The position numbers were made by a program, and so were the translations under genes. The notes under the pieces were generated by a model. The model saw only the letters and a list, made by a program, of their open reading frames with translations. It was not told where the DNA came from and ran no database searches. From positions 1-30,787 of IMG/VR virus record IMGVR_UViG_3300024301_000057: DNA of 30,787 bases; one strand, written 5' to 3'. Positions 1 through 18,739 of the stretch are shown piece by piece; position 1 is the stretch's first letter, and each line of letters begins with the position of its first letter. Origin of the DNA: a virus.

Positions 1-381
1 GCAGTACAGGAAAAGAGAATCGAAGAGAACATCAAGGCATTGATGGCCGAAGGAATGGACTTTGAGGGTGCACTAGCAATGACCGCAAAGATGGATGTTG
101 GTTCCAACATGGTTACTGGTGAACATCCAGATGGAAGTTTCGGTATTGACAATTTCAAAGGGGAGAGACTTGACCAATTGAAAAGTTCTAGTCCGGACTA
201 TAATAACTTTGACAAACAGGTTGACTTCGTAAAGAGCGAACTAAATACAACCAAGGCGGAAGTCAAAGCAAACATGGGTAATAGTCTTACCAGTAAAATC
301 AAAGCAACATCCGAAGGACAAAATGTTCAACAGATTGCGAATAAAGTATATGAACTCAATGACAAGTATGGGGGTGGTTGA
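1..381 (+). CDS. Partial tail-lysozyme-like protein (5' end outside window)
   Basis: The frame is open from base 1 to the TGA at 379-381, so the 126 visible residues are the C-terminus of a gene that starts upstream. The stretch HPDGSFGIDNFKGERLDQLK (residues 42-61 from the window edge), followed by a Q-x-x-F-V-x-x-EL pattern, resembles phage tail-tip lysozyme domains, where a G-S-x-G-I-x-Q-W-x-G-x-R segment follows the catalytic AESG. Here the corresponding upstream site reads MDVG, so the usual Glu may be replaced by Asp (residue 32). If the assignment holds, this would be a peptidoglycan-directed hub component used during tail penetration. It overlaps the next gene by one base (TGATG), which fits translational coupling. 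The family call rests on pattern memory and the active-site reading is uncertain; an unrelated structural protein is possible. Confidence 0.5.
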   Translation, partial: AVQEKRIEENIKALMAEGMDFEGALAMTAKMDVGSNMVTGEHPDGSFGIDNFKGERLDQLKSSSPDYNNFDKQVDFVKSELNTTKAEVKANMGNSLTSKIKATSEGQNVQQIANKVYELNDKYGGG

Positions 382-2423
382 TGTCTGTTAGAACTGACAT
401 AAAACAGGCCCTTGATATAAAATTAACGAGGGATGGTCAAAACACCACACTCTCAAACGAAATCAAAAAAGCCAAAGAATCTGAACTGGTTAAGAATGCG
501 ACTATTCTTGGTCAGGAAGCGGGGAAGGTAGAGAAGGGTTTCAAGAATCTTGAGACAGCAGTCTCTTCTGCCGGAACGTTTGAAGCAAAGGGCGAAGCGC
601 TGGTAGAACTAACCGATCAGGTTGACGGTCTTGGTAAGACGTTTGATCGTGCAGCTACCGATATCAATTTAAGTGTTCCCGAATTGGGTGGAATTTTCGG
701 TGAGGGTGAGGGAAGTCTTGAGAATCTTATTGATGGACTTGGATCCGGTGACTCAGCTTCACTGTTAGACGGTCTTACCTCTACGGTAGAGGCAATCGGT
801 GGTGACATTGCGGGACAGATTGCACAGATCATCACACTCCTAACCGGACTCGGTGCAATGCTTGATAACCTTAGCGCTGCGGGTGTATCTGGTAGTGGTA
901 TGGATGCATTGTCTAAGACTGGGGAAACAATGGCTGCAAAGGCAGATGGACTCATGGGAAGTCTGGAAACTGCAGCGGGTAGTCTGAGTAGTATCTCCGA
1001 TGTTTCTAGTTTATCAGAATTGACCGGAACAATCAACAACTTTGCACAAGATATTAGTAATGTTGCGAGTGAAATATCTGCGATTCAAAATATCAACCCT
1101 GCATCCGAATTCACCAACAACCTCTTACAGGATGATGTTGGCGGACTGTCAGAACTTGGAAAGACATTTGAAGATGCGAAGTCAACGGTTGACGGAATTA
1201 CAGGTGAAGTCAATAGTGTTCTTGCCGAGGTGGACAAAGCTAAATCTTTTGTAGATGAAAATGTTAGTAAAGCAAGAGGTTTAGTGAATGAGGGGAAGGC
1301 TCTAGTTGGTGATCTTCAGACCGGAGGGGGTAAGTTACAAGACCTCGCTGAGAACACAACCCTGCAAGCCTCTGGTAAGGTCAATGACCTTCTTGGCGCA
1401 ACAAGTCTTCGTGGTACAGGAGTAACTCCTAAACCCCAAGGCGGTGGCGGCGGAAGAGGTGGTAGTGGTAGTCTGAGTAAATCAGCAATATCCAATGTCA
1501 TCAAACAAACACAAAGTGGTGCTCCTGTCGATCTTGCGAAGGCAGTTCAGACCGTGGGTGGTGGAAACGTTGGTGTCGATCCTTCAATCAAACCCATCCT
1601 CGCTAAACAAAAAGGATTCTCTAATACACGTGAGTTGGTAGAGAAGGTTGTCGCAGAATGTAAAACTAAAGGAATTGATCCAACTTTGATTAGTGACTTT
1701 GTGAAAGTCATGGGTGTCGTGGAAGTGGGTGTTACCACAATCGACACAACAATCACAGACCAAATTAAAGTCGGTTCTCAGGAAAGAAGTATCTGGAAAG
1801 AGTCTTTCGATGTTGTTGGTTATCCAAGAGAATTTGATACGTATCAACGGTTTGAGACAGGGGAAATTACTGCAGCGACACAGGCAAATTCGGTTACCGC
1901 AGAAAAGAAACCTATTGTATTCCAGACGTGTGATACCAAAGAAGAACTTCAGGCTGAGGTTCGTCTATTCAAACGTGAGATTCGATCTTTGATCATTCAC
2001 TCTACAGAGTCGTTTAAGAATCAATACTTGACTGCAGAGATGTTACACGAAGATGCAAAGGCCCGTGGATTCCCCACCATTCAGTATCACTATGTAATTC
2101 GCAGAGATGGTACGATGCAGAGGGGTATTCCAACAACATTGATTTCAGAACTTGACCCTAGAGAATACAGAAACACATCCATCAACATTGCTATGGTCGG
2201 TGGTATTGATGCGCCTAGTGGTACAGAGGGTGCAAACTCGTTTAGATCGGGTAACTCGTTCACTCTTGCACAGTATCAAACTCTAGACACTTTCCTAGAT
2301 ACATTCTTTAAAGGATATCCTGGCGCCAAAGTATATGGTTATGGTGAACTGGTAGATACTACTAACGAACCGTACTTTAACGTGGAGAAATATGTGCAAA
2401 GGAAATTTGGTAAAATACGATGA
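381..2423 (+). CDS. Tail hub protein, long helical N-terminus plus C-terminal amidase-like domain
   Basis: This is a 680-residue protein from the ATG at 381; a TTG lies one codon upstream, but the ATG follows a GGGGGTGG stretch and overlaps the previous stop. Residues 1 to about 350 are Ala/Ser/Gly/Leu-rich and predicted helical, with many short heptad-like segments. A Gly-rich linker with five consecutive Gly follows at about residues 353-366. The C-terminus (about 530-680) looks like an N-acetylmuramoyl-L-alanine amidase (Amidase_2/PGRP fold): LIIHST with His540, QYHYVIRRDGTMQRG with Tyr569 where T7 lysozyme has its catalytic Tyr, then SINIAMVGG. The second zinc ligand, normally the His of a G-H-R segment, reads VYGYGE with Tyr654, and no CPG-like third ligand is evident. 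The domain may therefore bind cell wall without cutting it. It lies directly before the spike gene, which fits a role in the hub or central tail tube. The T4 gp5 lysozyme role may be divided among this and its neighbours. Confidence 0.65.
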   Translation: MSVRTDIKQALDIKLTRDGQNTTLSNEIKKAKESELVKNATILGQEAGKVEKGFKNLETAVSSAGTFEAKGEALVELTDQVDGLGKTFDRAATDINLSVPELGGIFGEGEGSLENLIDGLGSGDSASLLDGLTSTVEAIGGDIAGQIAQIITLLTGLGAMLDNLSAAGVSGSGMDALSKTGETMAAKADGLMGSLETAAGSLSSISDVSSLSELTGTINNFAQDISNVASEISAIQNINPASEFTNNLLQDDVGGLSELGKTFEDAKSTVDGITGEVNSVLAEVDKAKSFVDENVSKARGLVNEGKALVGDLQTGGGKLQDLAENTTLQASGKVNDLLGATSLRGTGVTPKPQGGGGGRGGSGSLSKSAISNVIKQTQSGAPVDLAKAVQTVGGGNVGVDPSIKPILAKQKGFSNTRELVEKVVAECKTKGIDPTLISDFVKVMGVVEVGVTTIDTTITDQIKVGSQERSIWKESFDVVGYPREFDTYQRFETGEITAATQANSVTAEKKPIVFQTCDTKEELQAEVRLFKREIRSLIIHSTESFKNQYLTAEMLHEDAKARGFPTIQYHYVIRRDGTMQRGIPTTLISELDPREYRNTSINIAMVGGIDAPSGTEGANSFRSGNSFTLAQYQTLDTFLDTFFKGYPGAKVYGYGELVDTTNEPYFNVEKYVQRKFGKIR

Positions 2424-3937
2424 GTAAGAAGACAGAAGCCGAACAGGGTACTATTCAGGAAAATGAGGGAACTAACCTCTATGGGTTTCAAGACCCCACA
2501 GGAGAATTCCCTCGTGAAGATTATTGGGGAGAGAGTTCTATCAACCGTGCAGCACGTGGTGCTGGTGGTGTAGGACAAAAGGACAAACCCAATGATCTCA
2601 CTATGTCTGCGGTGTTCCCCAATATCGACATGGGTCTTGGTACTGCAACACAGGGCGAAGATGGAACCATTGAGTTCGAAACTAACACGGGACGTTCCAA
2701 GTATCCTTATAACAAGGTAACAGAGACTTACTCAGGACATGTCATTGAGATTGACGATACCGAAGGTAACGAACGTGTCCTGATTCGTCATCGTACTGGT
2801 TCTGGTATTGAGATGCGTAAGGACGGGTCTATTTGGATCAGTGCAACCAAGGACAAGTATGAGACTGTCGGTGCGGACTGTAAGATTGTAGTCGAGGGTA
2901 ACACGGAGATTGCCTATGAGGGCAACCTTGACATGTGGGTGGGTGGTAACTTCAACCTAGACGTTGGTGGTAACCAGAACATCAAGATTAAGGGTAACAA
3001 GAACGAGAGAGTTGCAAAGGATCACAAACACAGAACCTCTGGTAATTCCGAATATACCACAAAGGGGAATGCAAAGATTTCCACAATGGGCATTCACACC
3101 GATGCGTGTCTAGGTGATCTACGTAAGACCATCACAAAAGGTAAACACGAAATCTCTGCAGAGGGGGCAGTAGACTTGGTATCTGATACCACACTCCTTC
3201 TTTCGGGTAAAAAGGAGGCGGTCATGGTATCGACTGCCTGTAACATCTCTGGTACAACCGTATCTGCAATTGGTATGAAAGGATCGTTTGGTGGTGACTT
3301 CGTAGACTTCTTTGGTAAGTCTTTCTCAGGGCCACTTGGGCCCCAACCCGCATCTGGTGCTGCCTTCTACGGATCGGTGATCGGGACTTCTCTATTCTCA
3401 ACTTTCTCACAGTTTGCGGGAGAGTCATTACGTGCGGGAACTGCGGGTGCATTGGGCCCGCCTGGTTGGGGTCTTGCTGTAGTTCCTCCGGTTGTTCCGA
3501 TTCCACCTACATCACCCCCTCCTAAAGCTGCATTAGTCGGACTTCACCTTGCGGGCGGTGCGTATGCGATTCGTACCGTAACCATCGATGCGGGTGGGAC
3601 ACTGAAATCAAAAATTCTCAAAACAGACTCCTATGGTGGTGTCTTTGATGATGGTGAACCTACGACTCAAGAAGCACGATCTGCAATGCGAGATGCTTCA
3701 AACAAAGATGCGATTGGTGCGTCACTGGCAGTAGACGGTGTTATCAGTGACAAACTTGACGATGTTGTTCCACCCAACATTGGTAGAACGGCTGGTAAAG
3801 CAAGAACAACACAATTTGGTAACACGCCTTTGGGTAATACTATCAAAGGACTTGGTAAACAATTTACAGTATCGAAACTAGAAGAGGAAGTGGAGTTACC
3901 TCCGCCTCAAATAAGAGTGAGTGAGGATTCGGCATGA
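2420..3937 (+). CDS. gp5-like central spike (beta-helix), no lysozyme domain
   Basis: This 505-residue protein starts at an ATG overlapping the previous stop (ATGA). Residues about 95-145 (SGHVIEIDDTEGNERVLIRH, then SGIEMRKDGSIWISATKDKY) match the segment that leads into the spike in VgrG and gp5 proteins. From about residue 157 to 224 there are eight-residue repeats of the form V-x-G-N-x-x-x-x (VVEGNTEI, AYEGNLDM, WVGGNFNL, DVGGNQNI, KIKGNKNE), the hallmark of the trimeric gp5 C-terminal beta-helix that pierces the outer membrane. In T4, gp5 carries a lysozyme between its OB domain and helix; no such domain is present here. Downstream of the helix is a Gly/Ala region with a Pro-rich stretch (PPVVPIPPTSPPP, about residues 354-367), then a hydrophilic tail. 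No PAAR-type tip protein is recognisable in the window. The product should be the membrane-puncturing needle. Confidence 0.85.
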   Translation: MSKKTEAEQGTIQENEGTNLYGFQDPTGEFPREDYWGESSINRAARGAGGVGQKDKPNDLTMSAVFPNIDMGLGTATQGEDGTIEFETNTGRSKYPYNKVTETYSGHVIEIDDTEGNERVLIRHRTGSGIEMRKDGSIWISATKDKYETVGADCKIVVEGNTEIAYEGNLDMWVGGNFNLDVGGNQNIKIKGNKNERVAKDHKHRTSGNSEYTTKGNAKISTMGIHTDACLGDLRKTITKGKHEISAEGAVDLVSDTTLLLSGKKEAVMVSTACNISGTTVSAIGMKGSFGGDFVDFFGKSFSGPLGPQPASGAAFYGSVIGTSLFSTFSQFAGESLRAGTAGALGPPGWGLAVVPPVVPIPPTSPPPKAALVGLHLAGGAYAIRTVTIDAGGTLKSKILKTDSYGGVFDDGEPTTQEARSAMRDASNKDAIGASLAVDGVISDKLDDVVPPNIGRTAGKARTTQFGNTPLGNTIKGLGKQFTVSKLEEEVELPPPQIRVSEDSA

Positions 3938-4524
3938 TATATTTAGCAGACCCCGTTTATAATCCGGAACAACACAATCCGGTACAGATCACATCCAAGA
4001 TTAAACTTGCAAAGGGCATTTCCATTGCAACATTCTTAGGATATGGTGCACCTTCTTTGGGACACATTGGTAGTGCGGAACAGAGAGCACAGGTTGCACG
4101 TAACTTATTGTTGCACGCTGACATCATGAATATGGTCAATGCGGACAAAGACTTTTTTCGTGATGTTAGAATAAAGGTATCAGAAGGACTGTATGCTGCA
4201 GGCCCAACAGAGACCATTGCGGGTGACAATCTTCTGAAAGCAGATGGACGTATGATTGGTTATCAAGTGATCAATGGTTTTGGTAAACTTGATTTGGAAA
4301 GAACATTCGATGTTGCTGTCTATCTCAAGGACAATGCGAGATTCAAAAGACTTGTTCTGGACTACGATACGTATAATCCAGACGGTTCTTTGACAGCTAC
4401 TATCTTAGTAGAGTTTCCTATGATTCCTCCCACTTATGATGTGGTGTTCAAACAAGATATTCAGACACAATACAACGGAACCTTATTTTCCAATAAAGAA
4501 CTCGTAGAAGTCTTGCCAAAATAG
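3934..4524 (+). CDS. Hub-adjacent protein, possible degenerate M15-type peptidase fold
   Basis: This is a 196-residue protein with an ATGA overlap with the spike gene and a GAGG seven bases before the ATG. I do not recognise it with certainty. The order 'RNLLLHADIMNMV...VRIKVSEGLY' (about 56-87), 'GYQVINGFGKLDLERTFDVAVYL' (109-131) and 'NARFKRLVLDYDTY' (134-147) resembles the layout of M15_3 D-Ala-D-Ala carboxypeptidases: an Ile/Val-SxGYR segment, then S-x-H-x-x-G-x-A-x-D, then F-x-x-L-I-x-E with a final W-V-H. The zinc His residues are absent at the expected places, so if the fold is right the enzyme is probably dead or structural. T4 gp53 has the same length (196) and is also a baseplate protein, but I see no similarity to it. 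The location between spike and gp25 points to a baseplate role. This gene closes the hub operon before the late promoter at 4525. Confidence 0.55.
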   Translation: MIYLADPVYNPEQHNPVQITSKIKLAKGISIATFLGYGAPSLGHIGSAEQRAQVARNLLLHADIMNMVNADKDFFRDVRIKVSEGLYAAGPTETIAGDNLLKADGRMIGYQVINGFGKLDLERTFDVAVYLKDNARFKRLVLDYDTYNPDGSLTATILVEFPMIPPTYDVVFKQDIQTQYNGTLFSNKELVEVLPK

Positions 4525-4559: not shown

Positions 4560-5015
4560 ATGGCAATAAAACGTGCTCTGTCAATAGAGGATCGCAATCT
4601 AGATACGGTTACCTTTAAAACTACAAGGAACCGTAAGAATCTAGATATCGACTTGGGATTCTCCCCCAAACCTACAACGGGAGACATCTACAAGAAGACT
4701 GAGGCGCAGGCAGTCAAACAGGCTGTTCGTAATCTTCTGACTACAGGTAAATACGAAAAACCATTCCAACCGGATTTTGGTGCACGTCTGTACGACTTTC
4801 TCTTTGAACTGGACACGCTATATGATGGAGAAGCAATCATCAACAACGTCTATGAGTCAATTAGAGTTTATGAACCTAGAGTTGATTTGAGGACACTGGA
4901 AGTGATTCCTAGAATTCTACCAGACCAAAACACTCTGCAAGTTGATGTTATTTTCAAAGTAATAAATTCAGGTGATGAAGTGCAGCTCACCACAACATTA
5001 AATAGGTTAAGGTAA
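4560..5015 (+). CDS. 25: Baseplate wedge protein gp25
   Basis: This 151-residue protein is a member of the GPW/gp25 family (T4 gp25 has 132 residues). Visible family features are the N-terminal FSPKPTTGDI segment, 'AVKQAVRNLLTTGKYEKPFQ' and 'PDFGARLYDFLFEL' (about residues 56-90), and the E-P-R signature in RVYEPRVDLR followed by alternating beta strands. In T4, gp25 joins gp6 and gp53 at the base of the wedge and contacts the first sheath ring. It is the sheath-initiator equivalent found in all contractile injection systems, with P2 gpW as counterpart. It is the first gene after a late promoter and overlaps the gp6 start by one base (TAATG), so the pair is probably translationally coupled. 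No unusual residues were noticed. Confidence 0.93.
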   Translation: MAIKRALSIEDRNLDTVTFKTTRNRKNLDIDLGFSPKPTTGDIYKKTEAQAVKQAVRNLLTTGKYEKPFQPDFGARLYDFLFELDTLYDGEAIINNVYESIRVYEPRVDLRTLEVIPRILPDQNTLQVDVIFKVINSGDEVQLTTTLNRLR

Positions 5016-6844
5016 TGGCGACAACTATCAAATCGTCCTCGTTGGACTTTGCAAGTATTAAGAACAACCTTAAGTCGTTCTTACAGGAGAAAGAGGAGTT
5101 CAAAGATTATAACTTTGAAGCCTCTGGTCTATCGAACCTATTGGATGTCCTTGCGTACAACACACACCTAAACGGTCTCACCGCAAACTTTGCATTGAAC
5201 GAGTCGTTTCTTTCGACCGCTCAGTTGCGTAGTTCTCTGGTGCAACTATCAGAAGCCATTGGTTATATTCCAGACTCCAAGACCGCATCCGAAGCCATTA
5301 TTCGAATGGGTATGAACCTATCAAACGTTGCGGGACGTGAAGCCACGATTACTATTGCGTCTGGTTATCAGTTCACCTCCAAGGTTGATGCTGTAAAATA
5401 TACATTCCAAACTAACGAAACGTTGATTGCTTCCGACGATGGTGCTGGTTACTATCAATTTACGACACTTGATGGGAAAGACAAGATTCCTGTCTTTGAA
5501 GGTCAGAAGAAAGTTAGAAGTTTTATTGCTGGTAGTAACGACGAAAATGCTGTGTATATCATTCCCGACAAAAATATGGATATCGATACTGCAGTGGTCA
5601 AGGTCTATGAAAACACGAGTACGACAAAATTTGTCACGTACACAAGCATTCTGAAAGCAACAACGATCAGCGAACAATCCACACTGTACATCCTCAAGGA
5701 GATGCCTAACGGTTACTTCGAATTGAGTTTTGGTAACGGTACAACATTGGGTCAGACACCAATTCCTGGCGGTAAAATTGTAGTCGACTATTTGTCTGTA
5801 AATGGTGCAGCCGCAGATAATGCGTTAATCTTTGAACCTAGTTCAACAATCAAAATTACCAATACCGTATCAAGAACTCCTGTGGTTAGCACATACTCCA
5901 AGTCTGTGGGTGGTGGAGAGAAGGAGTCTATCGAATCGATTCGTAAGAATGCTCCTTTCCAGTATGCTTCACAGAATAGGATGGTTACCTTTGCGGACTA
6001 TAATTCGCTTATCCTGCGTAACTTTTCTACGCTTATTAAGGACATTTCTAGTTGGGGTGGAGAGGACAATATCAAACCTGAGTTTGGTGTTGTCTTCACG
6101 TCTATCGAATTCCAAGATGACGTGGGCGAGAATAGAAAACAAGTAACCAAAGATGCTATCGTCGATCTCGCAGCACAAATTGCAGTCGCTACGTTTGGTA
6201 TTAAGTTTACCGATCCTGTTAAGACGTGGGTTGAAACAGAGGTGTTCTTTAGATTCAACCCTAACCTAACAACCCTGTCCCTGAACACAATTCAGGAAAA
6301 TGTCAGATCGGTAGTAAATAATTATTTTGCAAAGAACACAGGTAAGTTTGGACAGGCTTTCCGTAGATCGAACCTGTTAACTCTAGTTGACGATGTTTCT
6401 CCTGCAGTCCTTTCTTCTCGTGCAGAAGTTAAGATGCAACAGAGATTCTTCCCGTCCTTGTTAGTAGAACAAGATCACACACTTGATTTCCCTGTAGCGA
6501 TTGCATCCCCCGACGATGTTCTGTATAGAATCACATCGTCCACTTTCTCATATAAAAATCAGAACTGTCAGGTGAGAAATCAGCTCAACTCTAATAAGTT
6601 GCAAGTGATCAACCTAACAACTAATAAACCTATTGTAGATAATGTGGGTTCTTATAACGCTGACCTTGGTAAGGTAGAGATTGTCGGTCTACAGGTGGAT
6701 CAGGTTATTGGTGGTAACAACTACATTAAGTTGGCGGTAGTTCCTGCAAACCAGTCCGTTATACTTCCGACAAGAGAATACATCTTAAATCACGATTCCG
6801 CTAGATCGGTTGCACGTGCAGTAATAACGGATGCAGATAACTAA
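5015..6844 (+). CDS. 6: Baseplate wedge protein gp6
   Basis: This 609-residue protein corresponds to T4 gp6 (660 residues) and P2 gpJ. The N-terminal segment with 'NFEASGLSNLLDVLAYNTHL' (about residues 33-52), then NGLTANFALNESFLSTAQLRSS and LSEAIGYIPDSKTASEA, is the conserved gp6/gpJ N-terminal region. Later features are a beta-rich middle with 'YFELSFGNGTTLGQTPIPGG' and a region around 'NAPFQYASQNRMVTFADYNS' that matches gpJ-type domains. Gp6 dimers form the inner ring that holds the wedges around the hub and rearrange when the sheath contracts. It starts at TAATG overlapping gp25 and ends in TAATG overlapping the next gene, giving a tightly packed wedge operon. Confidence 0.92.
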   Translation: MATTIKSSSLDFASIKNNLKSFLQEKEEFKDYNFEASGLSNLLDVLAYNTHLNGLTANFALNESFLSTAQLRSSLVQLSEAIGYIPDSKTASEAIIRMGMNLSNVAGREATITIASGYQFTSKVDAVKYTFQTNETLIASDDGAGYYQFTTLDGKDKIPVFEGQKKVRSFIAGSNDENAVYIIPDKNMDIDTAVVKVYENTSTTKFVTYTSILKATTISEQSTLYILKEMPNGYFELSFGNGTTLGQTPIPGGKIVVDYLSVNGAAADNALIFEPSSTIKITNTVSRTPVVSTYSKSVGGGEKESIESIRKNAPFQYASQNRMVTFADYNSLILRNFSTLIKDISSWGGEDNIKPEFGVVFTSIEFQDDVGENRKQVTKDAIVDLAAQIAVATFGIKFTDPVKTWVETEVFFRFNPNLTTLSLNTIQENVRSVVNNYFAKNTGKFGQAFRRSNLLTLVDDVSPAVLSSRAEVKMQQRFFPSLLVEQDHTLDFPVAIASPDDVLYRITSSTFSYKNQNCQVRNQLNSNKLQVINLTTNKPIVDNVGSYNADLGKVEIVGLQVDQVIGGNNYIKLAVVPANQSVILPTREYILNHDSARSVARAVITDADN

Positions 6845-10365: not shown

Positions 10366-13300
10366 ATGCCAAAGATATTTAATAAACAAGTATTCCAGAC
10401 AACATACAAGGACGATCACGCTGATAGTGATGGATACCATCGTATCCTGTTTAACAGCGGACGTGCTTTGCAAGCCCGTGAGTTGACACAACTTCAGACG
10501 ATCATTCAGAAAGAGATCACACGTCTGGGACAGAATGTCTTCCGTGATGGTGCGCCTGTAAACAATGCGGGTTCTGCGTTTGAAAGAAACCTTGAGTTTG
10601 TTAAAATCAAAGCAACCACACCACTTCCTTCCAATGTTAGTATCATCGGCAACGTTTTTGTTGGACAGACAAGTAATATTAAAATTCGTGTCGAGGATGT
10701 CCTTGCGGCAACTGACACCGATCCGGAAACACTTTATGTAACTTACTTAGATACTCCTGAAGCTAGTTCGGGACAAACTGCACCTCGTGTAACTCCGGAT
10801 GAAACACTTTCGGGTACAATCGATGGTAACACATATACCTTCGATGTGCAACAGGAAAATACAGCACTCAACCCCGCAACGGGTAGAGGTATTGCATACG
10901 CAACGGGCGAAGGTTCATTCTTCGCAGTGGGACGTTTTGTCTTCTCTCCGAAGCAACGTATCTATCTTTCCAAGTATACTCAGAACTACACTGGACAAAT
11001 TGTTTTTAAAGTAACAGAAGATATTGTTACTTCGTCTGACAATGCTGCACTATTTGATAACCAAGGTGCGACACCCAACAGATCGTCGCCTGGCGCAGAC
11101 AGATATCGTATTCGTCTGACCCTTTCTAAACTGGAAGACTTGGATGCTGAAGACAACCACGTACCCTATGCAGACATTGCAGACTCTAAAGAAGTTTCTA
11201 AGGTATCTGCATCTGAGGGATACAACGAAATTAGAGAACATGTTGCAACACGTGTTCGTGAGATTCATGGTAACTTCATTAAGAAGTACTTCAAGGCAAA
11301 GTTTATACCTAACAACGATACTACGTTTAAGTTAGTCGTTGACCCTGGCCTTGCATACATCGATGGATATCGTGTAGAAAAACTTAAGTCCACACCCATT
11401 GTCGTAAAGAGATCACAGGAAACCACAACTGTAGACAATCAAGGTATTCTTGCAAACTACGGTAACTACTTCTTGGTATCTGACGCACTTGGTGCGAAGG
11501 GTATGTTGAACTTTGATGACTGTCAACAAGTAAATCTTTATGATGGTGTTGGCGCAACGGGTAGCGTAATTGGTACAACCAACGTTCGTGCATTGACTGA
11601 GTTCCAAAACTCTCAGTACAGACTCCATGTATTCAACTCAGTAATTACAGACAATACGAAGAGTCTTCGTAACGTAAGATCGGTAGGTACTGGTACTTCT
11701 AGTTATTACAATATCGATTTCAGTGATAACACAACACTAAGAGAAACCAAACAGAAAACACTTCTGTTCGATTCTCCCGTGCCTAGACCCAAGAGCTTTA
11801 GTAGCATTTCTCTTTCAGTACAAAGAAGATTCTCTGGAACAACCACGGGGTCTGGTGAGTTAACTATTGCACTGACCACTACTGGTGAAAACTTTGAAAA
11901 CGTCAATGATTGGGTGTTCGCATCGGCATCTGACGGTTTCTTGGCTGGTAGCGTTTCTCTGACAGGCGGTGGAACGTCCGCAACAATCAGCGGTCTTCCC
12001 AACAGTGCTGCAGTAGAAATTCTCGCATATGTCAAGAAGGGTCAATCAAAAATTAGACCCAAAACCTTGACAGAAACTACTGTTACTGGTAGAATAGATT
12101 CTGACGGTGATGGTGTTAAGTATCTTTCTCTAGGTGAGTCGGACATCTTCTCTTTGAATAGAGTTCGTTTGAATGACTCTGATGGCACCAACATCTTCAC
12201 CAACTTTACCTTAGACACTGGTCATCGTGATACACACTACGATGATGGTAAACTTCTTTGGAAAGGAACTGGCCCCATCACCACGGACTCCGCTGGTGGT
12301 AATGGTACAACCATATTCGCTAGATTCAAGTACTTCTCACACGGTACAGGAGATTTCTTTGCGGTCAACTCCTATACAGGTCAGGTTGACTATGTAGATA
12401 TTCCTGCTCACCGTATGAATAACCGAAGACTTGTTTCTCTTCGTGACGTTCTGGACTTCCGTCCCTCTACAGACGGTGCTGGAACTTTTGTAACAGTTAA
12501 CGAACTTCCTCAACCCACAGATACGGTTGAGATGGATGCAGAATTCTATCTGCCTCGTAAGGACAAACTGGTTCTTTCTAAGATGGGTGAACTGAGATAT
12601 CTTCAGGGAACGCCTTCTCTTGATCCTCAGTTTTCCGAAACTCCTACAGACTGTATCGATCTGTATAAGTTCGAAATGAATCCGTTCACTCTTCACACCA
12701 AAGACTTGAAGAGTCGTATCCTTCCTTTGAAAGGATACACGATGGCGGACATCAACAAGTTAGAAACCAAACTCGACAAGGTTGAAGAAATGGCCGTATT
12801 GTCGATGTTGGAACTCAAGACACAAGCTTTGAAAGCATTGGACTCTGCGGGTGCAGACAGAACCAAGTCCGGTTTCTTTGTAGACAACTTTGCAAACCAC
12901 TCTTTCACTGACACTCAGAGTCCGGAACACCGTGCCACCATTGATCCTCAGAAGAAGTTTATGAGGCCTGGCAAAAAAGAATCGGTTATCGATCTTCGTT
13001 TTGATTCTGCAAACTCTAACCAGTTGCGTGTTAAGAAGAGTGGCGATTTGATCACTCTTGATTACACCGAAGCTGATTTCTACGAACAGGGTGTTGCATC
13101 TAGAGTAGAAAACCTGAACCCCTTCTTCGTTGAGAAGTTGGTTGGTTCTATTACCATGTCTCCTGCTTCCGATTACTGGAAAGAGATTGATATTCAACCT
13201 CCTCAGATCATCGATCAACCCTCAGTACTGGATACGTCCAATGCGGTAAACTGGAACAACCATGAATGGGATTGGGGTGGTGTACCTCTTGATGACCTTC

Positions 13301-16089
13301 AAGTTGGTGCTTCACAGGGACAGGTGACTGGTACATCTACAAGTCGCACAAGTAATACCCTAGAACCTTTTGTCAGTGGTACTTCAACGTCCCAACAACA
13401 AGGCGATTGGGTTGTAACTGGATCAACCAGTAACACCACATCTTTGGGTACTCAGACCAACGTTGTTTCTCAGTCAACCGAAGAGGTTTCGACAGACTGG
13501 GGTTTAGGGGGCGAAACTGGAACAGCGGCCATTGTGGGTGTGGGTCAAGACTTGTGGGTTGCTAACAATGATGGAAGGGCTTTCGCTGGTCAGGCCGGGG
13601 GGATTACAATTCAAACTGGTCAAGTTGATACTATTCAGACCACCACTTCAGAAACTCGTGAAGCCCTTGAAACTGTTGATACAACTACCCTAGAACAGAC
13701 GACTACGACTACAACGGAAACCGAGTTTACTACAGAAACTCAGATCACAACAAATGTGTCAACAACCACAACAGTAAACCGTATTTCAGGTGAACATACT
13801 GTTCGTGAGGTTGTTGGTCAACGTGTATTTGACTTGATCTCTATTCCTTGGATGCGTTCACGCAAAGTCTCTTTCCGTGGTGATGGTCTTCGTCCCAACA
13901 CAAGATACTTCCCGTTCTTTGATGATACGGACGTGGGAACTTTCTGTATTGCGACTTCGAACTTTGTACGTCACTCCGACAGAAACCCCGAGACAAGAAC
14001 CGCAAACCTCACTCCTTCTGTAACGCACAGTGAACAGAATGCGGGTAATGAATTGCTTATTAGTGACGCTTCGGGTACGGTCAATGGTGAGTTTGAAATT
14101 CCCAACAACTCCGCTATGCGTTTTGCAACGGGTACGAGAGAGTTTGCTCTCTATGACGTAAGTGTTCCTGATACGGATGCAGCCTTGTCTTTCGCTAAGA
14201 CTAACTTCACATCTACAGGTGACATCGAACCCGTACAAGATATTATCCACAGTACTCGTGTTCTTGAAGTAACAGGAAGTACTTCTACTTCTGTGTCCAA
14301 TAACACCGAGAGTGTTTTCTCGACAAGTACAGATGTGGCTATCGTGGAGTCTACTGCACAGGATGTTCAGACGAGTTCTACACAGACTGAGGTTGTACTC
14401 GGCCAAGAAACTAACTCAGAAGTTATTGATAGTCAGGCGATCAACGTCACAATCTTCCTACCACGTGACCCTCTGGCTCAGACTTTCTTTGTGGATGTGG
14501 ATGCGCCTAATGGTGCATTCCTCACTAAAGTACGGGTATACTTTGCAACGAAGGATGATGAAGGTCTACCCGTAGAAATGCAAATCCGTCCTGTAATCAA
14601 CGGTGTTCCAGCTTCTTCTGAGATTGTGCCTGGAAGTCGTAAGTTCCTGCAGGCTTCTGAGGTAACTGCGATCACTGACACCTACACAGACCCGACTATC
14701 GATGAGATGTTGGCAAACGGTACGGACTTTGAGTTCGACGAACCCATCTATCTGAAACCTCTTACAGAGTATGCAATCGTTCTGATGACACCTTCTATGA
14801 AGTACAGAACCTACATCTCTCGTGTTGAGGACTTTGTACTTGGTTCGACAGAAAGACGTATCTCTGAACAACCTTCATTGGCCTCTCTCTTCAAGTCTCA
14901 GAACTCTTTCCTTTGGGAACCTTCTCAGACAGAAGACTTGGCGTACAAGTTGTTCCGTGCAGACTTCCAGACTTCGGGTAATGTGTTCCTTGAGAACGTA
15001 AACCAAGACCCCGTAGTACTTGCGAAGAGCCCCTTTGTTGTACGTCAGGAGAATATTGATTCTGGTGATCCAGCCACAATTACTGTGATTCATAGAGGAC
15101 ACGGTTTACGTCAGGGAGACCTCACAACTATCACAGGTCTTGATTCCGATACCAGATACAATGGTGTACTTGGATCAAGTATTATTGGTCAGAGACAAGT
15201 AACTTCTGTAGACGGTACTGGTTATGAATTCCTTGCGGACAGTGATTTCACTATCGCAGCAAGGTTTGGTAACGGTAAGTGTAGTGGTAGTTTCCAACCG
15301 ACATTCGACTTGGTATGGCCTTCTATTCAAACCATGAAGGTTCCGACTACAGACATCACATTCTCTGCTAAGTTTACTAGTAACTCTTCTCTAGTAGATT
15401 CGTCTTCGGGTAGATTTGTACAAGACTCTCAGTTCACTTTGATTAAGAACAAGTCTAACAATTACTTTAATGCACCTAGATGTATTATCAATCCGAACGA
15501 AGAGGCAACAGAACTAAGCACATACAGTTATCCTAAGTCTGCAATTGTTCAGTTGAACTTGACAACAACCGATAGTAAAGTTTCACCTGTCATTGATATG
15601 CAACGTGCGGGTCTGACCATGATCGGTAACATGATCGACAAACAAGATTCTGCATCAACAGACGGATTCAATGTGCCTCTGAGTTATGTGCCGGAATCTC
15701 ATCCGTTCTTGGGTAGTTCTTTGTCCAAACACTTAACCAAACCTGTAACTCTAGAAGAAGTTGCGACAGGTCTGAAAGTGATTCTTGCTGCGAACAAACC
15801 ACCCGAGGCAAGTTTCCAGTTGTGGTATAGAACTGGTGAGGCTGAAGACGAACTATCTAGAAAGAATTGGGTCTTGGCTTCTGCGGATAACGTTCTGCCT
15901 TCAGACACTAACAAAACCATTTTCCGTGAATATCGATATACCATCGGTGGATTTGGTGACGTGAATAACTTGAATGGTGGGGATATGTCAGACTTCCGAC
16001 AGTTCCAATTGAAAATTGTTATGAATTCGACCAATAGTGCAAAGGTTCCAGTCATTCGTGACTTGAGGGCAATTGCTTTGGCGGTGTAA
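10366..16089 (+). CDS. Giant structural protein, DUF4815-like (1907 aa)
   Basis: This is the largest gene in the window. The N-terminus (FNKQVFQTTYKDDHADSDGY, then ILFNSGRALQARELTQLQTI and FRDGAPV) matches the large 'DUF4815' structural proteins of marine T4-like phages, which are thought to be baseplate- or fibre-associated. Beyond about residue 960 comes a Ser/Thr/Gln/Glu-rich, low-complexity region to about residue 1145, with a run of six Thr in QTTTTTTETE. A conserved-looking block follows, ISIPWMRSRKVSFRGDGLRP, then YFPFFDDTDVGTFC. A second Ser/Thr/Gln/Val-rich stretch covers about 1290-1360. The block 'DPLAQTFFVDVDAPNGAFLT' and VRVYFATKDD leads to a beta-rich C-terminus. The low-complexity pieces look like flexible spacers between folded modules. 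A fibre or baseplate-connector role is inferred from family and position; the receptor is unknown. Confidence 0.75.
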   Translation: MPKIFNKQVFQTTYKDDHADSDGYHRILFNSGRALQARELTQLQTIIQKEITRLGQNVFRDGAPVNNAGSAFERNLEFVKIKATTPLPSNVSIIGNVFVGQTSNIKIRVEDVLAATDTDPETLYVTYLDTPEASSGQTAPRVTPDETLSGTIDGNTYTFDVQQENTALNPATGRGIAYATGEGSFFAVGRFVFSPKQRIYLSKYTQNYTGQIVFKVTEDIVTSSDNAALFDNQGATPNRSSPGADRYRIRLTLSKLEDLDAEDNHVPYADIADSKEVSKVSASEGYNEIREHVATRVREIHGNFIKKYFKAKFIPNNDTTFKLVVDPGLAYIDGYRVEKLKSTPIVVKRSQETTTVDNQGILANYGNYFLVSDALGAKGMLNFDDCQQVNLYDGVGATGSVIGTTNVRALTEFQNSQYRLHVFNSVITDNTKSLRNVRSVGTGTSSYYNIDFSDNTTLRETKQKTLLFDSPVPRPKSFSSISLSVQRRFSGTTTGSGELTIALTTTGENFENVNDWVFASASDGFLAGSVSLTGGGTSATISGLPNSAAVEILAYVKKGQSKIRPKTLTETTVTGRIDSDGDGVKYLSLGESDIFSLNRVRLNDSDGTNIFTNFTLDTGHRDTHYDDGKLLWKGTGPITTDSAGGNGTTIFARFKYFSHGTGDFFAVNSYTGQVDYVDIPAHRMNNRRLVSLRDVLDFRPSTDGAGTFVTVNELPQPTDTVEMDAEFYLPRKDKLVLSKMGELRYLQGTPSLDPQFSETPTDCIDLYKFEMNPFTLHTKDLKSRILPLKGYTMADINKLETKLDKVEEMAVLSMLELKTQALKALDSAGADRTKSGFFVDNFANHSFTDTQSPEHRATIDPQKKFMRPGKKESVIDLRFDSANSNQLRVKKSGDLITLDYTEADFYEQGVASRVENLNPFFVEKLVGSITMSPASDYWKEIDIQPPQIIDQPSVLDTSNAVNWNNHEWDWGGVPLDDLQVGASQGQVTGTSTSRTSNTLEPFVSGTSTSQQQGDWVVTGSTSNTTSLGTQTNVVSQSTEEVSTDWGLGGETGTAAIVGVGQDLWVANNDGRAFAGQAGGITIQTGQVDTIQTTTSETREALETVDTTTLEQTTTTTTETEFTTETQITTNVSTTTTVNRISGEHTVREVVGQRVFDLISIPWMRSRKVSFRGDGLRPNTRYFPFFDDTDVGTFCIATSNFVRHSDRNPETRTANLTPSVTHSEQNAGNELLISDASGTVNGEFEIPNNSAMRFATGTREFALYDVSVPDTDAALSFAKTNFTSTGDIEPVQDIIHSTRVLEVTGSTSTSVSNNTESVFSTSTDVAIVESTAQDVQTSSTQTEVVLGQETNSEVIDSQAINVTIFLPRDPLAQTFFVDVDAPNGAFLTKVRVYFATKDDEGLPVEMQIRPVINGVPASSEIVPGSRKFLQASEVTAITDTYTDPTIDEMLANGTDFEFDEPIYLKPLTEYAIVLMTPSMKYRTYISRVEDFVLGSTERRISEQPSLASLFKSQNSFLWEPSQTEDLAYKLFRADFQTSGNVFLENVNQDPVVLAKSPFVVRQENIDSGDPATITVIHRGHGLRQGDLTTITGLDSDTRYNGVLGSSIIGQRQVTSVDGTGYEFLADSDFTIAARFGNGKCSGSFQPTFDLVWPSIQTMKVPTTDITFSAKFTSNSSLVDSSSGRFVQDSQFTLIKNKSNNYFNAPRCIINPNEEATELSTYSYPKSAIVQLNLTTTDSKVSPVIDMQRAGLTMIGNMIDKQDSASTDGFNVPLSYVPESHPFLGSSLSKHLTKPVTLEEVATGLKVILAANKPPEASFQLWYRTGEAEDELSRKNWVLASADNVLPSDTNKTIFREYRYTIGGFGDVNNLNGGDMSDFRQFQLKIVMNSTNSAKVPVIRDLRAIALAV

Positions 16090-16318: not shown

Positions 16319-18739
16319 ATGGCACGTCCAATTACAGCTTTAACAGATTCGTTTAAGATTCTTAGAGACAATCTTAACACCATCTCTAACAATGTCGGCG
16401 ACCCTGATCTTCTGACTACTACGTCTAGAGCCTTCACTGAGGGTAATACCGATGTTGCACAGAGATCAGACTCTTCCGATGTTGTAAGTGCCTTAAACGA
16501 ACTAGATTCTGACCTTCACGGGCTTGGCGGTGGTGATGTCAAGAACGATCTGAACTACCTCTCGTATGCGATTAATCGTGTACGTGACAGTGGTATGACG
16601 GGTGCGATCAATGCCATCGACGCATATATCGGTGGTGACTCCGATACTCTTAATGTTGAAGCGAATACAATCAGGGATGCGATCAACGAGATCGAAGCTG
16701 TCTTTGATGCAAGTACACTCAAGATCAATGCGGGAGGTAACTTCCGGTTTGATGGTGCGGGTGACCTAGAAGTCAACTTGGATGGGGGTGATGTTACCTT
16801 CCTCAAGGACTCTGAACAGTACGCACAACTTACTTTAGGAACAACAACCACACTCGACATTACTGTTGCGGGTAAGATCGTAACAGCAGATTCGACTGGT
16901 GGTACATTTGAGATCGATGCAGGGGGTGACATCACCCTTGACGCAGACGGTAACCAGATTCGATTCAAGAACGGTGCGGGTGGAGACGAAGTAACTCACA
17001 CTCTTGCAGACGATGCAACCTACGAGATTGACGCACCTTCTACTTACACAGTGGACGCAGTTGGGGACATTATCCTTGACGCAGACACAGGCAGAGTACG
17101 TATCAAAGACGGCGGGACTGAGGCTTATAACTTCCAGTCCAACGGTATCGTAACCTCTGCGAATGCTCTATTCGTCAATGCATCTGACTTCACCCTGAAC
17201 ACAGACAGTGCGGGTGTTGCGACTATTTCGTTTACGACTGACAGTGCGAACAGAATTGTCTACACATTGACTCCATCGAATCAAACGATGGCAGTAACAA
17301 ATGACTTGACAATTGACGCTTCTCGTGATATAATCCTAGATGCTGCCGGAGCGGATATAGATATGCAAGTTTCTGGTACATCCAGAATCAAGCATACTAT
17401 GGGTGACAGTAATACCGTTGCGGTAACTGGACACTATACTCTCGACGCATCTCAAGACATCATCCTTGATGCGGGTGGAGACAACATCTACTTTGCGGAT
17501 GGTGGTTCTAAGAGATTTACTTATACTCTTGGTACGAACCAAGAAATCGACGTTGTAGGTAACCTCACCTATGACGTGGCTGGTGACATCAACCTAGACG
17601 CTGGTGGTAATACGGTTAACCTGAAAGGTAACGGTACAACCAGAATCTCACACGAATTGGGTGCGACAAACACTACCACAGTAACAGGTAATCTGACAGA
17701 CAGTATCTCTGGTGACTACATTCGAACTGTAGGCAATCAGACGATTACTGACAGTGATTATACTCACACATCGAATACAGCCACTCACAACACTACAGGT
17801 GATTTCACCGTAGACGCAGAATTGGATATTGTCCTTGATGCAAATGGTGGAGACGTATTCCTTAAAGACGGTGGTACAACCTACGGTTCTTTGACTGCGA
17901 CAGGTTCTAACCTGATCGTCAAGTCTGGTACGACTACTGCACTGACATTCTCTGGTGCGAACGTAACGACTGGTGGTACAGTAACCACAGGTGGTAATGT
18001 CACGATGGGTGGCACAACCATTTCAAGAACTGGTGTGTTGACCCTTGACGTTTCGTCTAACATTAACCTTGACGCTGGCGGCGGTAACATCTACCTCAAA
18101 GATGATGGTACTCAGTACGGTAACCTAAAGTGGGGGGTTGGAGACAACCTTATCATTCAGTCTAAGAATGTCACTGCGGTAACATTTGACTCAGGTGAAC
18201 GTGCAACATTCGCTGGTGATGTTTATCAAGGTACTTCGCTCAACACCGAATCCGGTCACTTGGGTGGTGCGATCAACGAAGTCCATGATCAATTAGATTC
18301 TGCAGCCGGAGAGATTGCACTTCATGCGGGAAGACTAAATACCCTAGAATCTGAGATGGATTCCAACGAGACCCTTCTTGGTGCTACTCTACTTTACAAT
18401 GTAGATAATCCTTATAGTTGGGTTAAGTCTACTCCGGTTAAGACTGCAATCAATGATCTAGATAGTGCAGTTGGTACGTTATCTGATCTGGATGGAACCA
18501 CATTCGTATCTGCCTCAGACAAGGCAAATGTTGTGGCTGCACTCAACGTGCTTGCGGGTGACGTACAACAACTTCAAGACAGCGCTGGAACACTGGACGC
18601 TAGAATCGGATCACTTGCAAACCTTGCTGCATTCTTTGATAGTGCGGGAGCGACTGCAAGTATTGTAAACGCCCTGAACCATATGGCAAGTAGAGTAGTG
18701 GATATCTATGATGAGAATGGCACTCTCTTAAATACTTAA
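16319..18739 (+). CDS. Fibre-like structural protein with beta-repeats
   Basis: This 806-residue protein starts immediately after the previous stop (TAGATG). The N-terminus (ARPITALTDSFKILRDNLNT, then SNNVGD and DVVSALNELDSDLHGL) is helical. The middle, about residues 155-600, holds repeats centred on D-I-x-L-D-A-G-G-x-x-I-x-(F/L)-K-D-G-G; seven clear copies are seen. Such Gly/Asp-rich repeats predict a beta-solenoid or triple-beta shaft, typical of trimeric phage fibres. The C-terminus (about 640-806) returns to helical, coiled-coil-like sequence with repeated 'INDLDSAVGTLSDLD' and 'VVAALNVLAGDVQQLQDSAG' segments. Strong enrichment in Asp and Gly and lack of Cys fit an extracellular structural protein. 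A role as tail fibre or fibre shaft is inferred. Confidence 0.7.
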   Translation: MARPITALTDSFKILRDNLNTISNNVGDPDLLTTTSRAFTEGNTDVAQRSDSSDVVSALNELDSDLHGLGGGDVKNDLNYLSYAINRVRDSGMTGAINAIDAYIGGDSDTLNVEANTIRDAINEIEAVFDASTLKINAGGNFRFDGAGDLEVNLDGGDVTFLKDSEQYAQLTLGTTTTLDITVAGKIVTADSTGGTFEIDAGGDITLDADGNQIRFKNGAGGDEVTHTLADDATYEIDAPSTYTVDAVGDIILDADTGRVRIKDGGTEAYNFQSNGIVTSANALFVNASDFTLNTDSAGVATISFTTDSANRIVYTLTPSNQTMAVTNDLTIDASRDIILDAAGADIDMQVSGTSRIKHTMGDSNTVAVTGHYTLDASQDIILDAGGDNIYFADGGSKRFTYTLGTNQEIDVVGNLTYDVAGDINLDAGGNTVNLKGNGTTRISHELGATNTTTVTGNLTDSISGDYIRTVGNQTITDSDYTHTSNTATHNTTGDFTVDAELDIVLDANGGDVFLKDGGTTYGSLTATGSNLIVKSGTTTALTFSGANVTTGGTVTTGGNVTMGGTTISRTGVLTLDVSSNINLDAGGGNIYLKDDGTQYGNLKWGVGDNLIIQSKNVTAVTFDSGERATFAGDVYQGTSLNTESGHLGGAINEVHDQLDSAAGEIALHAGRLNTLESEMDSNETLLGATLLYNVDNPYSWVKSTPVKTAINDLDSAVGTLSDLDGTTFVSASDKANVVAALNVLAGDVQQLQDSAGTLDARIGSLANLAAFFDSAGATASIVNALNHMASRVVDIYDENGTLLNT
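16928..18100 (+). repeat. Protein-level DIxLDAGG repeats in the fibre gene
   Basis: Seven copies of a [D/N]-I-x-L-D-A motif start at 16928, 17066, 17327, 17456, 17585, 17825 and 18059. The spacings are 46, 87, 43, 43, 80 and 78 codons, that is about one or two times 40-43 residues. Most copies are followed by G-G-x-x-[I/V]-x-[F/L]-K-x-G-G. The DNA of the copies differs at many synonymous positions, so they are old repeats. Confidence 0.75.

Follow-up and report, generated by a model that had tools for sequence, protein, structure and literature searches.

The first 4.5 kb of the IMG/VR virus record IMGVR_UViG_3300024301_000057, of which positions 1 to 30,787 were analysed (30,787 nucleotides, hereafter the window), encode the central baseplate hub of an uncultured T4-like phage. 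The hub comprises four genes: ORF3 encodes the needle of the spike, and the three genes around it are homologous to peptidoglycan hydrolases of different kinds, namely a tail lysozyme (ORF1), an amidase (ORF2) and an M15 peptidase (ORF4). As had been proposed in a preliminary description of this DNA, all three lack key catalytic residues. The sequences suggest a T4-type hub with a split gp5, in which the three hydrolase folds of the clade that contains the window are, most likely, no longer enzymes and have been retained in the puncturing device in a non-catalytic role. The positions of all features are collected in Table 1.

Catalytic positions of the three hydrolase-like proteins

ORF1 is cut by the window edge, because the record holds only 30,787 bases; the complete protein, of 276 amino acids (aa), is encoded in a near-identical contig (L003:1180-2010) and begins with the OB domain of gp5 (Gp5_OB, E=9.8e-6). 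The fragment in the window scored 24.1 bits against the tail-lysozyme family PF18013, under the cut-off of 28.2 bits, and its relatives in the same alignment scored 87-93 bits (E about 1e-24 to 1e-26). When a model of the full-length protein was compared by Foldseek, T4 gp5 (1k28) and phi29 gp13 (3csq/3csr) were retrieved with a probability of 1.00; the pLDDT of the model is middling overall (64.5) and reaches 80-88 across most of the lysozyme part. The C-terminal domain is confirmed, at the level of the predicted model, as a tail-lysozyme fold of the phi29 gp13 type. In gp13 the suggested catalytic residue is Glu45 (PMC10394673). The column of this Glu is occupied in ORF1 by Gly34 (Gly184 of the full protein), directly followed by an invariant Ser, and a check of the ES, QW and YERP motifs gave Gly, Asn and no YERP, so that the QW and YERP motifs are missing too. 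Both the fold and the missing Glu had been recognized in the preliminary description; however, the Asp that it placed at the position of the Glu (Asp32) lies two residues upstream. A relative, L019, carries both this Asp and the Glu, and therefore the Asp is no substitute for it.

The C-terminal domain of ORF2 (residues counted from the ATG at 381) matches the Pfam family Amidase_2 (PF01510) with 29.0 bits against a cut-off of 26.0 (E 1.5e-6), phrog_822 (5.1e-21) and T7 lysozyme (1aro, E=3.6e-10). In the 1aro alignment, His17 and Tyr46 of T7 lysozyme have their counterparts in His540 and Tyr569. The other two zinc ligands, His122 and Cys130, are replaced by Tyr654 and Glu663, which leaves one of the three ligands (His540) of the His/His/Cys-or-Asp triad. 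The reading of Tyr654 in place of a zinc His, made earlier from the letters alone, is exact. In a sister locus, L177, both columns are occupied by the expected residues (His and Asp) in an ungapped alignment, and the loss of the zinc site is therefore recent. The effect of such replacements has been documented in another Amidase_2 enzyme, Ts2631, in which replacing the equivalent zinc His left 3.0% of the activity and replacing the Cys left 11.8% (PMC4573324). The N-terminal part of ORF2, of about 470 aa (window 378-1890), is helical and evolves fast; no relatives of it were detected among the hub proteins compared. A test of this part against hub proteins from S-SRM01 and C48C1 gave probabilities of <=0.9%, and homology to them was rejected.

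ORF4 gave no match in Pfam or PHROG scans and none by plain BLAST against named phages, and a single-sequence scan with the M15 domain of the Rhizobium phage RHph_I1_18 returned no relatives. The link of ORF4 with M15 comes solely from the needle of this Rhizobium phage and from profile comparison. The RHph_I1_18 needle protein ends with a Peptidase_M15_3 domain, as do those of pf16, Melnitz and BUCT-ZZ01. Relatives of ORF4 are encoded by 576 matched stretches in viral contigs, and in distant ones ORF4 forms a single chain with the needle, at its C-terminus, the same tip position that the M15 domains occupy. Alignment of the ORF4 profile with the needle-tip M15 profile by hhalign gave a probability of 88.3% and a score of 43.8, whereas controls with reversed, shuffled or unrelated profiles stayed at <=0.5% and <=16.1. 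The AlphaFold2 model of ORF4 is confident (pLDDT 91.3); its best plausible matches in the PDB, all with weak E-values, comprise Hedgehog domains and phage endolysins of the M15 fold. The zinc-binding H/D/H residues are present in 46/46 needle-tip M15 domains and in 0/72 members of the ORF4 family. Conservation within the family is highest in DYDTYNPD, a nearly invariant new motif that has no relation to the zinc site of M15. These comparisons bear out the earlier suggestion of an M15-like protein without the zinc His, and ORF4 is confirmed, as far as profiles and gene fusions can tell, as a former needle-tip M15 peptidase that has lost its zinc ligands.

Distribution among relatives and selection

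Each of 114 non-redundant loci was scored for the catalytic Glu of the lysozyme and the zinc triad of the amidase, with L003 standing for the window. The lysozyme is dead and the amidase intact in 62 loci, the reverse is found in 39, both are intact in 8 and both are dead in 5. The last five (L003, L008, L017, L018 and L245) are the lineage of the window and its nearest kin. They form one small clade in two trees, one of gp6 and one of ORF4 plus the OB domain, and in both trees this clade is nested within a large clade with a dead lysozyme and an intact amidase. In the gp6 tree its sister is L177, with an intact zinc triad, and the ORF4 plus OB tree leaves the order within the group unresolved. 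Within the lysozyme-dead group, loss of the amidase site is limited to the small clade of the window, all members of which keep Glu663. A hub without catalytic residues, as first described, is therefore a property of the window clade and not a general trait, since 109 of the 114 loci keep a complete zinc site in the amidase or the Glu in the lysozyme. The alternation of lysozyme and amidase is a pattern only: very few branches (3 and 5) carry a change, too few for a phylogenetic sign test to lend support to a trade-off.

Comparison of L003 with L008 gave a dN of 0.11 and a dS of about 2.5 for the amidase domain, similar to the needle and gp6, and a dN of 0.10 and a dS of 2.9 for ORF4; evolution is faster in the lysozyme domain and in the helical part of ORF2. 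Such strong purifying selection indicates maintained proteins and not decaying genes, and constraint of this strength fits folds that would serve as structural or binding parts better than it fits genes in decay. With respect to the host, two members of the family, L235 (a 142-kb contig) and L236 (a 44-kb contig), were binned with metagenome-assembled genomes of Bacteroidota, which provides a weak lead.

Organization of the hub locus and comparison with known systems

The four genes are present as they were first described, all read in one direction and overlapping their neighbours by a few bases. Near-identical longer contigs supply the upstream genes, which encode a tube cap, gp53 and a "tail protein" at the position of gp27, so that the whole order reads tube cap-gp53-gp27 position-ORF1-ORF2-ORF3-ORF4-gp25-gp6. 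ORF3 is a gp5 needle (PF22178, Gp5_trimer_C, 6.9e-8; PF06715, Gp5_C, 0.0022; phrog_430, 6.5e-36) with neither an OB nor a lysozyme domain. By homology, the T4-type gp5 is split here into an OB and tail-lysozyme protein (ORF1) and a needle (ORF3), with the amidase gene between them. The proposal that the functions of T4 gp5 are distributed in this phage is borne out in this sense: the content of one T4 chain is spread across several genes. The two parts are also separate ORFs in the relatives inspected and in the named phages RHph_I1_18 and Melnitz. One relative carries an additional ORF of 235 aa between its amidase and needle genes (L046:5809-6516). Elsewhere in the window, 35 bases of the needle gene (2939-2973) recur with 89% identity at 17576-17610, inside an 806-aa ORF (16319-18739) with a weak DUF2345 match, and a tail protein of 1907 aa, encoded at 10366-16089, matches DUF4815 strongly (7e-51).

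In T4, the OB domain, the lysozyme and the needle are made as one gp5 chain that is later cut (PMC4576200). The OB domain and the needle of the window are homologous to those of T4 gp5 (OB, GH24 lysozyme and triple beta-helix needle, cleaved to gp5* and gp5C), they hold the same place in the gene order by the equivalents of gp27, gp53, gp25 and gp6, and the split of the gene mirrors the proteolytic cut of the T4 protein. Unlike T4, the window has these parts in two genes that a third one separates, as well as extra amidase-like and M15-like proteins, and its lysozyme is of the phi29 gp13 type, without the catalytic Glu, rather than GH24. RHph_I1_18 (MN988519) resembles the window in its split gp5, with a gene for OB plus PF18013 lysozyme and a separate needle gene, but its lysozyme Glu and M15 H/D/H are intact, its M15 domain is fused to the needle and it has no amidase gene. 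The N-terminal lysozyme of phi29 gp13 shares its fold with the C-terminal part of ORF1 (Foldseek probability 1.0), whereas ORF1 has Gly for Glu45 and sits on a gp5 OB domain. The ORF2 domain is homologous to T7 lysozyme and Amidase_2, but it has lost two of the three zinc ligands and is attached to the helical hub protein of about 470 aa; T7 lysozyme, besides being an enzyme, has a second role in which it binds without catalysis (PMC4573324). The hub protein gp15 of Anabaena phage A-1(L) contains lysozyme, endoglucanase and peptidase domains (PMC10966104), that is, three hydrolase-type hub domains as in the window, but in one chain and with the endoglucanase and peptidase shown to be active. 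The Clostridioides difficile phage phiCD508 is a precedent for a myovirus baseplate without recognizable wall-cutting activity (PMC11948020), in which such domains are absent; in the window clade they are present and, as their residues suggest, inactivated.

Further arrangements were noticed in two of the named phages. Melnitz, a Methylophilales phage (L094:2320-5363), has an OB protein with a VanY-like domain and a needle with a second domain, of the M15 type, that retains H/D/H; the paper on this phage reports no lysin-like genes except the endolysin (PMC9004378). In the Synechococcus phage BUCT-ZZ01 (L095:2538-5357), one gp5 chain of 939 aa contains the OB domain, a GH19-type domain, the needle and an M15 tip.

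Table 1. Features of the hub locus, in window coordinates.
Feature	Position	Strand	Basis
ORF1, C-terminal 126 aa: predicted degenerate phi29-gp13-type tail-lysozyme domain	1..381	+	PF18013 E=4.6e-5
Asp32 of ORF1, two residues upstream of the catalytic Glu column	94-96	+	alignments
Gly34 of ORF1 (Gly184 of full protein), in the catalytic Glu column	100..102	+	alignments
ORF2, 680 aa counted from ATG 381: fast-evolving helical part (N-terminal), then amidase domain (C-terminal)	381..2423	+	
Amidase_2/T7-lysozyme-like domain of ORF2	1974..2318	+	PF01510, phrog_822, 1aro
Tyr654 of ORF2, at zinc ligand His122 of T7 lysozyme	2340..2342	+	alignments; His in L177 and most relatives
Glu663 of ORF2, at third zinc ligand, Cys130 of T7 lysozyme	2367..2369	+	Asp in most relatives
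ORF3: gp5 needle (C-terminal trimeric beta-helix)	2420..3937	+	PF22178, PF06715, phrog_430
ORF4: putative degenerate M15 (Hedgehog/DD-peptidase fold) protein	3934..4524	+	profile-profile, AlphaFold2, Foldseek, needle fusions
DYDTYNPD motif, ORF4 residues 143-150	4360..4383	+	most conserved stretch of the family, nearly invariant
gp25-like baseplate wedge protein	4560..5015	+	PF04965 1.8e-13
gp6-like baseplate wedge protein (used for tree)	5015..6844	+	phrog_219 1.7e-118, PF21379 3.3e-20

Alternative explanations and implications

According to the explanation preferred here, with moderate confidence, the three proteins would be carried in the virion, would have lost their activity and would have a wall-binding or structural role. 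The non-catalytic hydrolase folds would be packed against the needle or form its cap, a grip on the peptidoglycan would be provided by the amidase cleft and perhaps by the other folds too, and contraction of the sheath would supply the force that drives needle and tube through the wall. Several observations weigh against this explanation. The amidase keeps His540 and Tyr569, and zinc binding by Glu663 is conceivable in principle; Foldseek lends the M15 fold of ORF4 weak support (best E 0.14, probability 0.80, to Hedgehog domains); the dN/dS values are rough, since dS is near saturation; the sister genomes carry a GH24 lysozyme gene; and the seven longer contigs searched for other hydrolases are not proven complete. 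In favour of the explanation, these contigs gave no M23 or SLT match, and their Amidase_2 and PF18013 matches are hub copies only. The GH24 gene of L017 and L018 encodes a small separate enzyme of 152-153 aa that adjoins a PhoH-like gene, a place held by M15_3 in other members. This enzyme has the usual catalytic residues, judged by eye, and is most likely an endolysin. A swap of endolysins is seen at this one locus, with GH24 in relatives of the window clade versus M15_3 in other members (L233 and L234 versus L230-L232).

The strongest competitor, still a minority view by our estimate, is that the three dead enzymes serve only assembly or architecture, by packing the needle, closing the hub or chaperoning the split spike, with no contact with the peptidoglycan. 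The T4 lysozyme domain does pack on the needle, which cuts lysozyme activity about 10-fold (PMC7650644; PMC4576200), the feature that ORF4 conserves best is its new motif and not a zinc site, and the fast evolution of the lysozyme domain (53-65% identity, versus 80-87% in the OB domain) fits a loosely constrained spacer. The amidase domain, however, retains high identity and the equivalents of His17 and Tyr46 after the loss of its zinc ligands, which suggests a conserved cleft. It seems unlikely that enzymatic penetration has moved to another virion protein, either the GH24 of the sister genomes or an unrecognized domain in the long tail proteins: the occurrence of GH24 in L017 and L018 in place of M15_3, beside the same PhoH-like gene, could be read in this way, but in position and size it corresponds to a free endolysin that has taken the place of another one, and Pfam finds no hydrolase domain in the other window proteins. 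Rather less credit is given to a hub that still cuts the wall through unusual residues, with zinc held by Glu663 and His540 or with the upstream Asp acting in the lysozyme. The residues left in the amidase, the carboxylate at 663 in every clade member and the conservation of the Asp two residues ahead of the Glu column speak for such an enzyme; against it, in L017 and L018 the place of His122 is taken by Ile and that of Tyr46 by Phe, the lysozyme lacks its other motifs as well, and single replacements of the zinc His or Cys in Ts2631 leave only 3% and 12% of the activity. That the genes are ordinary pseudogenes or products of sequencing error has a negligible probability. Nothing but the substitutions themselves favours it, and it is refuted by open frames with the same losses in several lineages and separate assemblies, together with the strong purifying selection.

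Split gp5 hubs and hubs with several hydrolases are already known from named phages. What the window may add, at a likelihood that we place just below even, is a contractile phage lineage in which three different inactivated wall-hydrolase folds surround one spike, all of them under selection, and which would enter its host without a cutting enzyme in the hub. Its relatives, with the lysozyme or the amidase intact and usually not both, would then form a natural series showing the stepwise turn of hub enzymes into wall-gripping or structural parts. From a practical point of view, the hub is a warning that a domain match can earn the label "tail lysozyme" or "amidase" for a protein that does not cut. 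The family offers hundreds of natural variants of the same hub, differing in which sites are working or broken and including one clade with all three broken, so that the need of contractile phages for enzymes, as against force, in crossing the peptidoglycan becomes testable by comparing natural proteins.

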